From a virus: DNA of 20,499 nt. A program made the translations under genes and the position numbers. This document shows positions 12,844-20,083 of the stretch, in pieces; positions within the stretch are counted from its first letter, which is position 1; the number at the start of each line of letters is the position of its first letter. Location of the stretch: positions 1 to 20,499 of the IMG/VR virus record IMGVR_UViG_3300020435_000026; one strand, 5' to 3'. The notes beneath the pieces were generated by a model, which saw nothing but the letters and a program-made list of their open reading frames with translations, was not told where the DNA came from and did no database searches.

Positions 12844-12883
12844 CTATCAGTATACACGATAACGTGAGTCAGTATAACGATAG
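12844..12883. repeat. Nested inverted repeat upstream of the portal gene
   Basis: CTATCAGTATAC (12844-12855) faces GTATAACGATAG (12872-12883): ten of twelve positions pair. Inside lies CACG-ATAA-CGTG (12855-12866), a perfect four-base hairpin. On the minus strand the arms include two TATACT hexamers that could serve as -10 elements. There is no T-tract, so a simple terminator is unlikely. An operator, a promoter with symmetrical control sites, or an RNA processing site are all possible. Confidence 0.5.
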
Positions 12884-12886
12884 TAG

Positions 12887-13093
12887 TTAGTCAACGAGAG
12901 AAGCGGAGCCTTTGGTGCCAACCTTGGCAGCAAACGCACCCTTCAGAACTGATAGCGCTGCGGCAACGCCAGCACTCAGAACCATTTTCCAGTTGTCGAC
13001 GCCTAGGTCTAGGACGCTGTTAGTGCCAACGGCACCAATAGCAGCCTGACCAAAGGTGGCGGCGACCCGTTCAAGTAAGTCCTTATTGAACAT
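12887..13093 (-). CDS. Holin, r1t-type
   Basis: 68 residues from the ATG at 13093, nine bases after AAGGA. The frame is open to 13132, but that start has no ribosome site. The sequence fits the r1t holin pattern: Asp-Leu-Leu-Glu-Arg-Val-Ala-Ala-Thr-Phe-Gly-Gln at the N terminus, two hydrophobic segments (about residues 15-30 and 37-57) and the ending Lys-Gly-Ser-Ala-Ser-Leu-Val. Holins of this type accumulate in the inner membrane and open it at a set time so that a lysin can reach the wall. The gene sits between the phosphoesterase and the portal, away from any visible endolysin. Confidence 0.75.
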   Translation of the reverse strand: MFNKDLLERVAATFGQAAIGAVGTNSVLDLGVDNWKMVLSAGVAAALSVLKGAFAAKVGTKGSASLVD

Positions 13094-13142
13094 GAAAGAC
13101 ATTCCTTTGTAGGGAATAGGGAACCACACCACATCAGGTGCT

Positions 13143-13160
13143 TGGGCCCATTATAGCCCA
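13143..13160 (-). promoter_or_regulatory. Candidate promoter for the holin
   Basis: A perfect TATAAT hexamer on the minus strand (13155-13150), in the gap after the phosphoesterase stop. The hexamer lies in the loop of a TGGGC/GCCCA inverted repeat. No good -35 is found. A start near 13143 would leave a leader of about 50 bases before the holin ATG. Confidence 0.35.
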
Positions 13161-13168
13161 CGATCCTG

Positions 13169-14320
13169 TTACAGATTTGTATACTCTCGTCCTCTATACA
13201 TTGCCCATCCATCCCGTATGGTCACCATCTCTAGGTTGAACTTGCCGTCGCCCTCCTCGTACTGCACCACCGACAGCCCCTGCTGCCAGTTCTCATGGCG
13301 CTTCAAGGGCCTACCATCGAGGTCAGTGCCCCCTTTTGTGGAGGGAACCGCTCCGTCAATGCGGGCCAAGCATCCGGGGGACGCTGCGATGACAGTCCTA
13401 GGTCCGTCATAGTCTTCCCGAGTCATCTCAGCCCATTCACGCCTATGTATATGTCCGTATAAAACAGATACCTTCTCACGATTCAGATAGGCGTGAGCGG
13501 TACTACCATTAGACCGGACCAGATCGCCGTGGATGACCTTAATGTGCTCGTTGATCCAGACGCAGGAGGCGGGGTACCCAGCAAGATACTCGATGTCAAA
13601 GTCGTCCAAGCGGCACAGGCTGGGGATACTCAGCACCGGCCAACTGTCTGGACGAGAACCAACACGGATACCGAAGGCTGCGGCAGCGTTGTCCAACATG
13701 AAGTTGGTCAACCTCTCCTCATGGTTGCCCGCCAGCCATTTAATCTCTGCCCCGGGGGCAGCGGCGCGCAGGGCTGCACATATTTCTGTCGCCCTGTCCA
13801 CCGACGCTTGGGTGGTCTGCTGGAAGGCTGGGGACAGGCGGTACTTACCCAACTCTGGAAGATCCAGATTGTCTCCAACCAGTACCAGCAGTTCAGGTTT
13901 GATGTCGGAAACTATCTCCAGAGACAGCGCTATGGCACCCTCATCGTGGGTTGGTTCTAGCGAGCCGTCTTTGCCCTTGAAGTATCCAATCTGCATGTCG
14001 GGAAGTACAACACAGTTCTTTAGCGATGCCTTCGATTTGGTGGCAGAACTCTTGGGAAGTTTGATCGCTGGGCCGGGTTGGATGACCGGCCACTCCGGGC
14101 CCGTTTCCCACGCCGGAGAAATCTGGATACCAACCAAGTCGTGAATCTGCGCTTCACCATCTGAATCCTTCGTTAAAGACTGATAAAGGGACACCTTCTT
14201 GATGTCCCCAATGTCTTCCAAGTCTATGTCATGGCGATCCAGTAGAGCAGCCAGTTTACCAATGGCTTGCTTGGGTGGACCCTTGTCCAGTTTGCTGGAC
14301 AGTTCGCTCATGTTACTCAT
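13169..14320 (-). CDS. Calcineurin-like metallophosphoesterase
   Basis: 383 residues from the ATG at 14320, seven bases after GAGGAG. Its start overlaps the end of the HTH gene. Metal-site motifs appear in the right order: Asp108-Met-Gln110, Gly-Asp150-Asn-Leu-Asp, Gly-Asn199-His200-Glu, His264-Gly-Asp and Gly-His290-Ile-His292. The first motif has Gln where many members have His; the other ligands are intact, so the enzyme is probably active. The first 100 residues are extra, with a short helical part. The substrate cannot be told from sequence: nucleotides, nucleic acid ends or phosphoproteins are all known for the family. Phages often carry such an enzyme, and here it neighbours HTH and holin genes. 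Confidence 0.85.
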   Translation of the reverse strand: MSNMSELSSKLDKGPPKQAIGKLAALLDRHDIDLEDIGDIKKVSLYQSLTKDSDGEAQIHDLVGIQISPAWETGPEWPVIQPGPAIKLPKSSATKSKASLKNCVVLPDMQIGYFKGKDGSLEPTHDEGAIALSLEIVSDIKPELLVLVGDNLDLPELGKYRLSPAFQQTTQASVDRATEICAALRAAAPGAEIKWLAGNHEERLTNFMLDNAAAAFGIRVGSRPDSWPVLSIPSLCRLDDFDIEYLAGYPASCVWINEHIKVIHGDLVRSNGSTAHAYLNREKVSVLYGHIHRREWAEMTREDYDGPRTVIAASPGCLARIDGAVPSTKGGTDLDGRPLKRHENWQQGLSVVQYEEGDGKFNLEMVTIRDGWAMYRGREYTNL

Positions 14321-14678: not shown

Positions 14679-14936
14679 TCACTTCTTTGCTGCTGGTTTC
14701 CTCCGTGGAGGCTTCTTCTCCTTCACATGCCAGTCTAGGTGATCGGTGAGCCTGTCACCATTCTTGTCCACAGCCACCTTAACATCTGCGAGGGACTTCA
14801 CGAGACCTTTCAGCCTGTTAGCCACGTCAGCATGGTCCCTCTGGTTCTCATCCCGAAAGCGTCGTAAGAACAAGCCTAGCACCCCGAAGGAGCCAGTGAC
14901 CAACGCCGCCACGACAATGCCCCACGCCTCGGTCAT
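14679..14936 (-). CDS. Membrane-anchored coiled-coil protein (DUF2746-like)
   Basis: 85 residues. Residues about 5-24 form one membrane segment, followed by Arg-Arg-Phe-Arg. Residues 30-70 look like a charged helix with Asp-Arg-Leu-Thr-Asp-His-Leu-Asp-Trp-His, and the end is a Lys/Pro/Arg tail. In actinophages, small proteins with this design are found in lysis cassettes beside holins. This one may assist or regulate lysis, or act as a second holin. The ATG lies nine bases after GGAGG. Confidence 0.7.
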   Translation of the reverse strand: MTEAWGIVVAALVTGSFGVLGLFLRRFRDENQRDHADVANRLKGLVKSLADVKVAVDKNGDRLTDHLDWHVKEKKPPRRKPAAKK

Positions 14937-15118
14937 GCTAGAGTACCTCCATGGAGATCACACTGAACGAGGACGACTTCCTCGCCATCTACGATACGTT
15001 TGCCGCTCACTACATTGGGGGTGGGGACATCACCGAGGCCGAAGAGGTGGAGTTTGACCGGTTGGTGGCTCTGGAAGACCGAGCGTGGAAAGTGGTGCAG
15101 AGGGTGTACGCTAGACAT
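14933..15118 (-). CDS. Alternative antisense ORF, doubtful
   Basis: 61 codons exactly antisense to the plus-strand small gene. In its favour, the start shares a base with the 278-aa gene's stop (TAATG) and its stop overlaps the 85-aa gene's start (ATGA), junction types used elsewhere in this phage. Against it, the peptide is rich in His, Pro and Leu, its codons show weaker purine-first bias, and it has no ribosome site. Codon-aligned antisense frames of GC-rich genes stay open by default because only TTA, CTA and TCA codons close them. Confidence 0.25.
   Translation of the reverse strand: MSSVHPLHHFPRSVFQSHQPVKLHLFGLGDVPTPNVVSGKRIVDGEEVVLVQCDLHGGTLA
14936..14951 (+). promoter_or_regulatory. 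Candidate leaderless extended -10 promoter
   Basis: On the plus strand TGC-TAGAGT (14936-14944), then six bases, then ATG (14951). The spacing from the -10 hexamer to the ATG is identical to that of the plus-strand promoter at 19331-19346, so transcription would begin at or next to the start codon. Confidence 0.4.
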
Positions 15119-15130
15119 TATAGTGAGTAG
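14951..15130 (+). CDS. Small acidic protein on the plus strand, unknown function
   Basis: 59 residues in an otherwise leftward block. It starts Met-Glu-Ile-Thr-Leu-Asn-Glu-Asp-Asp-Phe and continues as acidic, amphipathic helices, ending Val-Gln-Arg-Val-Tyr-Ala-Arg-His. About half its codons begin with G and about 70% with a purine, typical of real coding. It fills the gap between two minus-strand genes, overlapping the end of the 278-aa gene by 13 bases. There is no ribosome site, but an extended -10 lies six bases before the ATG, as expected for a leaderless mRNA. A codon-aligned antisense ORF (14933-15118) competes for the same DNA. I favour this strand. Confidence 0.6.
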   Translation: MEITLNEDDFLAIYDTFAAHYIGGGDITEAEEVEFDRLVALEDRAWKVVQRVYARHYSE

Positions 15131-16441: not shown

Positions 16442-18016
16442 CTAAACAAAGAACGGATTCTCCGCTACCGACACTGTGGGCATGATGTCGTGAACCGACA
16501 TGGCGCAGGCCAAGGCCAAACTGTCGGGGTAATCATCGAAGGCACCCCTCTCATCGGGGGCCTCAGCCAGCAAGTATGGTCCTCGGTTGATGCGCTCTAG
16601 GTCCAACATCTGTTGATTAAACTTCTTCCAACGCTTCGTTCGCCTTGCCTTGGAGTGGCCCGGGATGACCAACTGGTTTCGCTGGATCAACTCCGTGAGG
16701 TGTACCCAACGCTCATTCTGGGCCTTGGCGTCAGATGAGATAGACAGAACTTCAATGTCTGGTAACAATAGTGCCAAGCGTTCTGCTACTGCCCCTCCCA
16801 CGCCCTGTGCGTCGATGCCCACTCTCATTACTTCGTAGTTTCGTACGAAATCAACGATCTTAAAGTACTGGGACTCCCAGTCGGTGTCATGCAGTTCCAA
16901 CCAGTTCAGGACCCGGTGCTCAAAGAACCCCAGCCCATCTGGGTGGTCCCAGTCCACCCACACCGCAGTAGCAACAGTAGAGTCGTTGCTCCTAGCCACG
17001 TCGATACCCATAATTATGGGAGTCCTCCACCACTCAGGAACCAGTGGCATGGACGGGTCGTACAGCCTGCCCAAACGGTCCTCGGTGACAAACATACCCT
17101 TCTCAAGCATCCAGTGGTTGAGGTAGGACATGCGAAACTCATCAGAGTCCTCCCCGATACGCACCTTCTCCTTGCTGATGAACCGGCCATAGTTCTCGTT
17201 GTACTTAGCAGCAGTACGCCAGTCGTACTCAAAGTGCGACTGCCTTTGGCCTCGTTTCTTACTAATGTCCCGACGTTTATTAAACTGAATCATCTTGTAG
17301 AAGTACGACTTGTTACGAGTAGCCGTACCAGTTAGAGCGATGGTGCCGTTGTTGAACGCCAACATGGGCTTGATTGACTTGGTAACCACATACTCGTCGG
17401 CCTCCTGAGCCTCGTCCACAATGGCGAAGTGGTACGTCTTGGACTCAATCTTGGCCTTAGGGTTACACGTCTGCATACGGCAGAGCGACCCAGAGTTCTT
17501 CAAGGACACTATCTTACCCTTGCCTCTGGCCCCCCCAGACGCAGCCCGATCATCAATCTCGGGGTCCAGTAGAAACTCTAGAGCATGGTCGCTGGTAAGA
17601 CGAGTAACTATACGACTAAACACCGTGTCAGCCTGATCCTCTGTGGGAGCGAACACCCCACACCACAGACCCTTACTGAACTTACTCAGCCACAAGGGGT
17701 ACACCATAGACAACTTGGGAAGAATCACCATCAGGGCGGCAATGACGTTTGACAGCACCTCCGACTTACCACTCTGTCGAGTGGCTATCAGGGTCAGTTC
17801 CTCACCATCACCGATAACAATGGATTCAATAAACCTGTAAGCAATGGGAATCTGGTAGGGAAAGAACTCTACGTCACAGAACTCTTCTGTAAATATAACT
17901 AGTTTCTTACACAGTTCGTCTACAAACTCAGCCGACGCCTCGTCCAGTTCGATCTCCAGATCAGCGATAGATTCAACATCATCATCTATCTCTGACTCTA
18001 GAAGATCGGTGCTCAC
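16442..18016 (-). CDS. Terminase large subunit
   Basis: 524 residues, GTG start overlapping the previous stop (GAGTGAGC), with GAGAGG five bases before it. The N-terminal ATPase has Walker A Thr-Arg-Gln-Ser-Gly-Lys-Ser (79-85), Walker B Ala-Ile-Val-Asp201-Glu202 and a coupling motif Thr-Gly-Thr-Ala-Thr (229-233). The C-terminal nuclease, of RNase H fold, has Gly-Ile-Asp339, Gly-Ile-Asp402 and Phe-Asp-Asp-Tyr-Pro-Asp498, the three acidic metal-binding positions. It pumps DNA into the head through the portal and cuts it to length. All key residues are present and length is typical. The small subunit is not identified; the 78-aa gene upstream is a weak candidate. Confidence 0.95.
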   Translation of the reverse strand: MSTDLLESEIDDDVESIADLEIELDEASAEFVDELCKKLVIFTEEFCDVEFFPYQIPIAYRFIESIVIGDGEELTLIATRQSGKSEVLSNVIAALMVILPKLSMVYPLWLSKFSKGLWCGVFAPTEDQADTVFSRIVTRLTSDHALEFLLDPEIDDRAASGGARGKGKIVSLKNSGSLCRMQTCNPKAKIESKTYHFAIVDEAQEADEYVVTKSIKPMLAFNNGTIALTGTATRNKSYFYKMIQFNKRRDISKKRGQRQSHFEYDWRTAAKYNENYGRFISKEKVRIGEDSDEFRMSYLNHWMLEKGMFVTEDRLGRLYDPSMPLVPEWWRTPIIMGIDVARSNDSTVATAVWVDWDHPDGLGFFEHRVLNWLELHDTDWESQYFKIVDFVRNYEVMRVGIDAQGVGGAVAERLALLLPDIEVLSISSDAKAQNERWVHLTELIQRNQLVIPGHSKARRTKRWKKFNQQMLDLERINRGPYLLAEAPDERGAFDDYPDSLALACAMSVHDIMPTVSVAENPFFV

Positions 18017-18717: not shown

Positions 18718-19121
18718 TAGCCAAAGTCCGAGAAGAACTGCATGTCTTTGTCCTTGGCCTCATGGTAGCCAATACCATTCAGGGTGGAGTTGATGAACTT
18801 GCCCTTTGACGTGCCGGGGGAATGGAAGTTCAAGTACGTGTGGTACGGCACATTTGGATACACGTACTCTCTCCTACGATTACCCTGCTTGATAAACTTA
18901 ACGCACAGGTTCCCCACACCGCTGTCAAACTCATTTTCGTCATCAGGTACGTACTTGTAAGCGTGAACACGAGTGCTGGCTGGGTACTCGACCTCAAACC
19001 GAGAGCCTTCCTTGCGCTCTGCGTCCAGAGATGTGGTACTTCCAAGAGTACCTGACTGTCCAGAACTTTGGTTGTCCGCTAGATCGTCAAGGGACTCTCT
19101 AGTCCTGTCCGGCTTCGGCAT
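18717..19121 (-). CDS. KTSC-domain protein
   Basis: 134 residues from the ATG at 19121, about ten bases after GAGGAG. A longer frame to 19163 only shadows the previous gene. The first 40 residues are Asp/Ser/Thr-rich and flexible. Residues about 50-118 match the KTSC fold: Val-His-Ala-Tyr-Lys-Tyr-Val, Leu-Cys-Val-Lys-Phe, a Tyr-Val-Tyr-Pro-Asn-Val-Pro turn and a Ser-x-Gly-Lys-Phe-Ile-Asn helix. The role of KTSC is not well known. It occurs in phage and plasmid proteins, sometimes beside nucleic-acid enzymes. It overlaps the end of the 59-aa gene. Confidence 0.75.
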   Translation of the reverse strand: MPKPDRTRESLDDLADNQSSGQSGTLGSTTSLDAERKEGSRFEVEYPASTRVHAYKYVPDDENEFDSGVGNLCVKFIKQGNRRREYVYPNVPYHTYLNFHSPGTSKGKFINSTLNGIGYHEAKDKDMQFFSDFG

Positions 19122-19278
19122 CGTCGGTGGGCTCCTCGTCCTGTGGCCCAGCCAGAGCGGCACGAAGTTCTGTCACCATCGCTGCCAGCACGACGTTCTC
19201 GCCCTGCAAAGCATTCAGACGATTCTGAAGTTCGTTGATTACGGTCTGGGGGTTGAGTTGAATGTTGTCTGCGTCCAC
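19099..19278 (-). CDS. 59-aa coiled-coil protein, first gene of the leftward operon
   Basis: GTG start with AAGGAG upstream at a good distance, and an open frame to TAG at 19099-19101. Residues 9-42 form one amphipathic helix with Leu, Val and Ile at regular spacing, and the last 15 residues are very acidic. It is the first gene behind the minus-strand promoter at 19308-19323. No family is recognised. Confidence 0.65.
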   Translation of the reverse strand: MDADNIQLNPQTVINELQNRLNALQGENVVLAAMVTELRAALAGPQDEEPTDDAEAGQD

Positions 19279-19307
19279 TGGTGCTCCTTGACCTGTACGG
19301 ATAGATA

Positions 19308-19323
19308 CCTCTCTAGTGTATCA
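19308..19323 (-). promoter_or_regulatory. Leftward extended -10 promoter of the structural operon
   Basis: On the minus strand TGA-TACACT (19323-19315). A start near 19308 would leave a leader of about 30 bases with the AAGGAG site of the 59-aa gene. It is the mirror image of the rightward promoter. The two -10 hexamers are 13 bases apart. Confidence 0.55.
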
Positions 19324-19340
19324 CCGAGAATGGTACACTA
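19314..19340. repeat. Perfect seven-base inverted repeat in the divergent promoter
   Basis: TAGTGTA (19314-19320) and TACACTA (19334-19340) flank 13 bases. Each arm contains the -10 hexamer of one of the two opposing promoters. A regulator bound to this site would block both promoters. Confidence 0.6.
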
Positions 19341-19346
19341 TTCTTA
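19331..19346 (+). promoter_or_regulatory. Rightward leaderless extended -10 promoter
   Basis: TGG-TACACT (19331-19339) lies six bases before the ATG at 19346, so the mRNA would start at or next to the start codon. There is no ribosome site before that ATG. Leaderless mRNAs are common in actinobacteria. Confidence 0.5.
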
Positions 19347-20083
19347 TGCGACAAGTTCCACATCCAGACCCAGCGCCGCATACCTGTCCCCGGTGCCTTG
19401 GCGGCGTACCAAACGAGGAGATGCGGGGCCAGTATCCCGGTGCTTTGAGCCGCACGGACAACTTAACTGAGGTCTGCTCCAACTGTGGCACCATGGAAGC
19501 CATAGAGCAGATGGGTGGAGTGCTGTATAGGCAAGCCGACTGGCCGCTAGCGGGCGGGCCTACACGTAGTCTGCAAGACATTCTTAGTGATCCAGAGGAC
19601 CCGGATCGGGCTCCAGCACCTTCCCAGCGCACAGGGGGCCGAAGGTCGGAGTTCATCGAGGACCCAGAAGGCTCTGCCAATCTGCCTAGACACCCAGATG
19701 GGTCCGTGGACATTGAGTCTTTGCGTGGTGGTGAGTCCATGGCCTCCCACCCATCCGATTGGGAACAGTTCCCACATGCCACCAATATCACAGAGACAAT
19801 GGATACCATTAACAGAAGCAGTGATGACCCGGACTGGCAACGATGGCTGCGGACTGGCCGGAACCGACCGGAACATGGTGGGCCCCACACACCAGATATG
19901 GTGGACTGGGAAGGTAGAGCCTTTAGACCTAACTATGACGAGCCAGACCCCTTTGACACCTCAAACCCCGAAGAGGCTGCCCAAGCCGAGAACATTGAAG
20001 AGACAGAACAGTTATTCTCCCAGTGGGATGAAGAGAGAGACCGCAGACGCAGATGGCTTGATGGTAGGGGCAGAGAGAGTTAG
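19346..20083 (+). CDS. Zinc-ribbon protein with a long acidic disordered tail
   Basis: 245 residues, the only long plus-strand gene. Cys14-Pro-Arg-Cys17 and Cys44-Ser-Asn-Cys47 form a zinc ribbon, with Tyr-Pro-Gly-Ala-Leu-Ser-Arg-Thr-Asp-Asn between them. I know this pattern from small proteins widespread in actinophages. Residues about 60-245 are Asp/Glu/Pro/Arg-rich, with repeated Trp in acidic settings and a charged C-terminal helix. The frame is open ten codons further upstream, but 19346 fits the promoter. Being divergent from the structural operon and sharing its control site, it may be regulatory. The zinc ribbon could bind DNA, RNA or a protein. Confidence 0.75.
   Translation: MRQVPHPDPAPHTCPRCLGGVPNEEMRGQYPGALSRTDNLTEVCSNCGTMEAIEQMGGVLYRQADWPLAGGPTRSLQDILSDPEDPDRAPAPSQRTGGRRSEFIEDPEGSANLPRHPDGSVDIESLRGGESMASHPSDWEQFPHATNITETMDTINRSSDDPDWQRWLRTGRNRPEHGGPHTPDMVDWEGRAFRPNYDEPDPFDTSNPEEAAQAENIEETEQLFSQWDEERDRRRRWLDGRGRES

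Follow-up and report, generated by a model that had tools for sequence, protein, structure and literature searches.

A 27-bp inverted repeat that probably comprises divergent extended -10 promoters, one of them leaderless, in a putative actinobacterial phage

The window, as we call the whole 20,499-nucleotide stretch analyzed, comes from a myovirus-like phage; in this 20.5-kb fragment a leftward structural operon and a rightward zinc-ribbon gene flank a short inverted repeat. On comparing this junction across related phages we consider it very probable that the 27-bp repeat consists of two back-to-back extended -10 promoters of sigma-A type that diverge, that the phage is actinobacterial, and that the rightward mRNA is leaderless. 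The leftward promoter would be ancestral and would drive the structural (head and tail) operon through a leader of about 30 nt with a Shine-Dalgarno sequence. The rightward promoter would have come, or arisen, with a zinc-ribbon gene that some members of the group carry at the junction, and its transcript would begin with the A of the ATG. The two elements are most likely ordinary extended -10 promoters of SigA type that have no -35. The components all have precedents: promoters with an extended -10, leaderless mRNAs of actinobacteria, and divergent overlapping promoters. We describe the anatomy of the junction with high confidence and its interpretation as a switch with low confidence.

Anatomy of the junction

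The first leftward gene (GTG at 19278) and the zinc-ribbon gene are separated by 67 bp, and the repeat lies within this interval (Table 1). The leftward genes of the window encode terminase, portal, capsid, sheath, and tube proteins. The heptamers TAGTGTA (19314-19320) and TACACTA (19334-19340) stand 13 nt apart. The repeat extends beyond these 7+7 bases, since each extended -10 has a TG that pairs with the CA of the other; in full it reads TAGTGTANCA-N7-TGNTACACTA and is symmetric at 9 of 10 bases. The inverted repeat amounts to two copies of one promoter 10-mer, TGNTACACTA, that face opposite ways across 7 bp. Both promoters are packed into 27 bases and their -10 hexamers are identical; no recognizable -35 accompanies either of them at the junction. 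The ATG (19346-19348) begins exactly 6 nt past the rightward -10. A previous sequence-only reading had given these coordinates and letters, the divergent extended -10 elements, the 13-base gap, and the distance to the ATG, and we confirmed all of them. The 5' ends that we predict, 19308 (-) and 19346 (+), coincide with the end coordinates given in that reading.

Table 1. Coordinates of features at the junction and elsewhere in the window
Feature	Position	Strand	Comment
Inverted repeat TAGTGTATCA-CCGAGAA-TGGTACACTA	19314..19340	.	Two opposed promoter elements
Leftward extended -10 TGATACACT	19315..19323	-	Putative structural operon promoter
Rightward extended -10 TGGTACACT	19331..19339	+	Putative promoter of the zinc-ribbon gene
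Predicted leftward transcription start, G	19308	-	7 nt after the -10; leader ~30 nt; placed from the -10 position
Predicted rightward transcription start	19346	+	A of the ATG (leaderless mRNA); placed from the -10 position and the conserved 6-nt spacing
Shine-Dalgarno sequence AAGGAG	19284..19289	-	Of the leftward 59-aa gene
59-aa gene, GTG start	19099..19278	-	phrog_1399, unknown function; first gene of the leftward structural operon
Terminase large subunit gene	16442..18016	-	Downstream in the leftward operon
Zinc-ribbon gene, 245 aa	19346..20083	+	phrog_2945, E 1.5e-4
Extended -10 TGCTAGAGT, 6 nt, ATG (14951), 59-aa gene	14936..15130	+	Inside the leftward operon

The repeat is rare. A 7+7 repeat with a gap of 10-16 nt is expected 0.00 times according to shuffles of the window, and 2.9 million viral contigs yielded the 18-base pattern in only 11 stretches, of which 5 belong to this phage family. 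The six other stretches with the double element (L116-L120 and L122) have no common gene arrangement and were taken as unrelated. In L118, L119, L120, and L122 a perfect repeat with 10-bp arms, TAGTGTATCA-N7-TGATACACTA, stands immediately 5' of an ATG; these contigs are apparently unrelated phages, two of them of 166 and 369 kb, and the resemblance probably has no relation to the window finding. We also noticed that TACACT occurs within the window only at the two junction sites (2 vs 12.3 expected; 18 vs 45 in the relative G001). Because the depletion is modest with a higher-order expectation (39 vs 67, pooled) and codon usage was not controlled, we dropped it as evidence.

Conservation of the two elements in related phages

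Relatives were found via the 59-aa gene that heads the structural operon, and the upstream region is present in 32 of them, giving 33 loci with the window. We found TGNTACACT 39-47 nt 5' of the start of this gene in all 33 loci, window included. In distant homologues, whose protein is 60-77% identical, TGNTANACT is kept at the same place and the hexamer varies within TANACT; it is changed to TGATATACT in L027 and L028, to TGCTAGACT in L021-L023, and to TGCTAAACT in L024. Hexamer variation at a kept site is the behavior expected of a -10 element, and the conservation of TGNTANNNT 5' of the gene, with a hexamer that varies within TANNNT, corresponds to an extended -10 of sigma-A type. A Shine-Dalgarno AAGGAG is found in 6/6 zinc-ribbon loci and in several loci that have the left element only; most others have an AAAGG-type sequence.

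In most relatives with the leftward promoter the upstream gene is co-directional. At many loci (L125, L128-L130, L133-L136, L138-L140, L142-L144, and L149-L155) the TGA stop codon of this upstream gene supplies the TG of the extended -10 TGATACACT. This overlap was seen with two unrelated upstream genes, a 270-aa gene of unknown family and a ferredoxin gene, and since both end in its TG, different genes abut the same leftward promoter. To judge from these sequences, the junction looks like a gene-exchange boundary. The ferredoxin gene (Fer4_15, E 1e-18) lies directly upstream of the structural operon promoter in L145 (1129-1395), L148, L154 (1186-1455), and L155.

The opposed rightward copy is present in all six contigs that carry the zinc-ribbon gene at the junction (the window, L008, L009, L010, L016, and L018) and in 0 of the 27 other loci, which have the leftward promoter and lack both the rightward arm and the zinc-ribbon gene. 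Retention of both arms and of their 13-base spacing among related phages had been proposed as a check of the sequence-only reading; it was borne out in 6/6 zinc-ribbon contigs, where most of the spacer is constant too, and failed in 27/33 loci for want of the right arm. The spacing from the rightward -10 to the start codon is 6 nt in all six contigs, the codon being ATG in five and GTG in L018. Because this spacing is fixed while the N-termini of the zinc-ribbon proteins differ in length ahead of the first cysteine, the position of the start codon follows the promoter and not the protein; upstream of the start, L008, L009, and L010 offer no longer reading frame. The earlier suggestion of a leaderless rightward mRNA accordingly stands as the best reading of the alignments.

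The six contigs are not independent trials, because a single arrangement is ancestral to all of them and the terminases of L009 and L010 are near-identical, leaving about five lineages; part of the conservation of the 13-nt gap may be ancestry. Across the zinc-ribbon contigs, 4-fold codon sites of the terminase gene are 56-77% identical to the window. In the five lineages 74/196 (38%) of these sites are invariant vs 16/16 fixed promoter positions (f^16 ~2e-7, with the neutral rate taken from codon sites of another gene, terminase).

At the N of TGN, each arm varies without regard to the other (T/G, T/A, G/A). Extended -10 elements behave in this way; a palindromic operator or a hairpin would not. 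We weighed both. If the repeat were a repressor operator with two arms 20 bp apart, center to center, its promoter likeness would be incidental, and the near-symmetric 10-bp arms, the two-turn spacing, and the adjoining gene for a zinc-ribbon (possibly DNA-binding) protein would all be accommodated. However, 27 relatives have the left arm and lack the right one, the left arm takes the form of other TANNNT hexamers in distant relatives, the arms differ at the N position, and the right arm keeps a fixed distance from the start codon. We regard an operator as very improbable, and rejected it on the lone left arm, the hexamer changes, and the independent N variation. Still less credit is due to a role of the repeat as RNA, that is, as a hairpin or terminator in read-through transcripts. 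Folding yields a 10-bp stem of -10.6 kcal/mol (z -2.55), but the repeat is upstream of both predicted starts and therefore in neither mRNA, no U-run follows the stem, a G-A mismatch falls within the stem in L009 and L010, and the partner arm is absent in 27 relatives. We rejected this possibility on the fold and the conservation pattern, and we retain the interpretation as two opposed promoters.

The zinc-ribbon protein itself has a CPRC...CSNCG N-terminus, a variable middle, and a conserved tail, WDEERDRRRRWLDGR. Its N-terminal 70 residues weakly match generic zinc-ribbon proteins of gut phages; the full-length protein has no match among sequenced phages, to which the window shows no direct DNA similarity either. 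Among the longer relatives we did not find the zinc-ribbon gene at this junction; elsewhere in these genomes there is a weak zinc-ribbon match in G001, and matches to the C-terminal module in G004 and G005. The C-terminal part matches several other genes in relatives, three of them adjacent (G004, 12845-14144) and another at G005, 35838-36035, which suggests that it may be a reusable module.

Competition between the opposed promoters

The sequence-only reading had also proposed that the junction is a built-in switch between the structural operon and the zinc-ribbon gene. The part of this proposal that treats both elements as promoters agrees with their behavior across relatives; the built-in switch finds no support. 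Because 27/33 relatives have no rightward arm, expression of the structural genes needs no paired arrangement, and because the two -10 elements have the same sequence, nothing seen favors one direction at one time. That two polymerases are unable to bind together is a reasonable supposition from the 38-bp distance between the predicted starts and the usual footprint of the polymerase. With starts this close, each open complex should block the other, and some mutual competition is likely. We infer that such competition probably follows incidentally from the compact packing and does not constitute a dedicated switch.

The phage lambda promoters pR and pRM are likewise opposed between two phage transcription units. 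In the window the leftward unit is the structural operon, and we found neither repressor operators nor lysogeny genes. The junction resembles the bidirectional promoters known from E. coli and other prokaryotes in being divergent, in its pseudo-symmetric DNA, and in its overlapping polymerase sites (Warman/Grainger; PMC12825309). Those promoters have a shared or overlapping -10 and starts mostly 18, 10, or 23 bp apart (PMC12825309), whereas the window has a separate extended -10 for each direction and 38 bp between the predicted starts; the junction thus lies outside the definition of Warman, which places the starts within a shared -10 or to either side of it.

A regulated switch appears unlikely to us. 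In it, polymerase competition would decide whether the structural operon or the zinc-ribbon gene is expressed, perhaps with tuning from a phage WhiB protein or from the product of the zinc-ribbon gene. Simultaneous occupancy is improbable with predicted starts 38 bp apart, 6/6 contigs share the 13-nt gap and most of the spacer, relatives encode WhiB proteins, and activated E. coli bidirectional promoters repress the opposite direction (PMC12825309), all of which would suit such a switch. Yet the structural operon is run without an opposing promoter in 27/33 relatives, both elements have the same hexamer, and we found neither operator nor asymmetry at the junction. Moreover, basal competition was absent at 5/5 promoters tested; the overlapping bidirectional promoters of E. 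coli compete only under strong activation of one direction (PMC12825309). A more specific version, a repressor-free competition module, is more doubtful again: here an activator encoded by the phage, such as a WhiB protein that acts on SigA at promoters that lack a -35 and have identical -10 elements and a fixed gap, would tip the polymerase and time the zinc-ribbon gene against the structural operon. With close relatives that have and lack the opposing promoter, the junction offers a natural test case for polymerase competition.

Probable host, leaderless genes, and palindrome avoidance

The host is probably an actinomycete, because relatives carry WhiB genes and the nearest annotated terminases are those of Streptomyces phages (45-46%) and actinobacterial genomes (48-51%). 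This assignment is drawn from the relatives, the window itself having no host marker. WhiB genes are present in 5 longer relatives, including G001 (89% terminase identity), and among the control genomes they were specific to Actinomycetota. One closely related contig (85%) is part of a MAG labeled Chloroflexi; the label could be a binning error or could reflect a real second host.

SigA of M. smegmatis prefers TANNNT as its -10; in that species leaderless transcripts make up 24% of the total, and an ATG or GTG is enough for leaderless initiation (PMC6448022). Leaderless SigA-type promoters of Actinomycetota (M. smegmatis and M. tuberculosis) have the same TANNNT about 6 nt 5' of an ATG or GTG, with no Shine-Dalgarno sequence (PMC6448022). 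The window differs from these in belonging to a phage, in the invariant extended TGN before the -10, and in having a second promoter back to back.

Further candidates for leaderless genes occur in this phage group. Among frames of at least 50 aa, those that start within 0-17 nt past TGNTACACT do so at 5 nt (six cases) or at 6 nt (four cases, all of them zinc-ribbon genes) and at no other distance. Genes with TGNTANNNT-N5-6-ATG recur in G001, G004, and G005, and TGATAAACT-N6-ATG precedes a 242/243-aa gene in three of them. Within the window, the rightward 59-aa gene located inside the leftward operon has the element TGCTAGAGT-N6-ATG (14936-14953), kept in homologues in L007, L009, L010, and L011, and is likely a second leaderless gene, antisense in the structural operon. 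Another TGNTANNNT-N6-ATG match, the window's third (20269), opens a 5-codon frame only and was set aside as chance. In addition, TGGTACACTNGGGT stands directly 5' of the ATG of a ~195-aa gene in the structural region of L099, L105, and L109, and also of L011, L030, and L037; this would likely be another leaderless late gene.

The comparison provides a sequence-level definition of a promoter element, TGNTACACT or more loosely TGNTANACT, for widespread uncultured, probably actinobacterial, myovirus-like phages. The element predicts leaderless genes, whose starts can be misplaced by gene callers that rely on Shine-Dalgarno sequences.

A separate observation concerns short palindromes. AGCT occurs 0 times in the window (~70 expected) and 0 times in ~209 kb of four relatives (~670 expected). 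It is absent from nearly all close relatives fetched (L005-L020, L025-L056, G001, G004, G005, and G006) and present in L021-L024 and in more distant relatives (L057-L084). AATT and CGCG are strongly depleted in the AGCT-free phages, and 16/64 six-base palindromes stand at zero in the pooled sequence, for example CTGCAG (0/75), GGATCC (0/80), and GACGTC (0/76). The pattern looks like extreme restriction-site avoidance, and is probably more interesting than the promoter finding.
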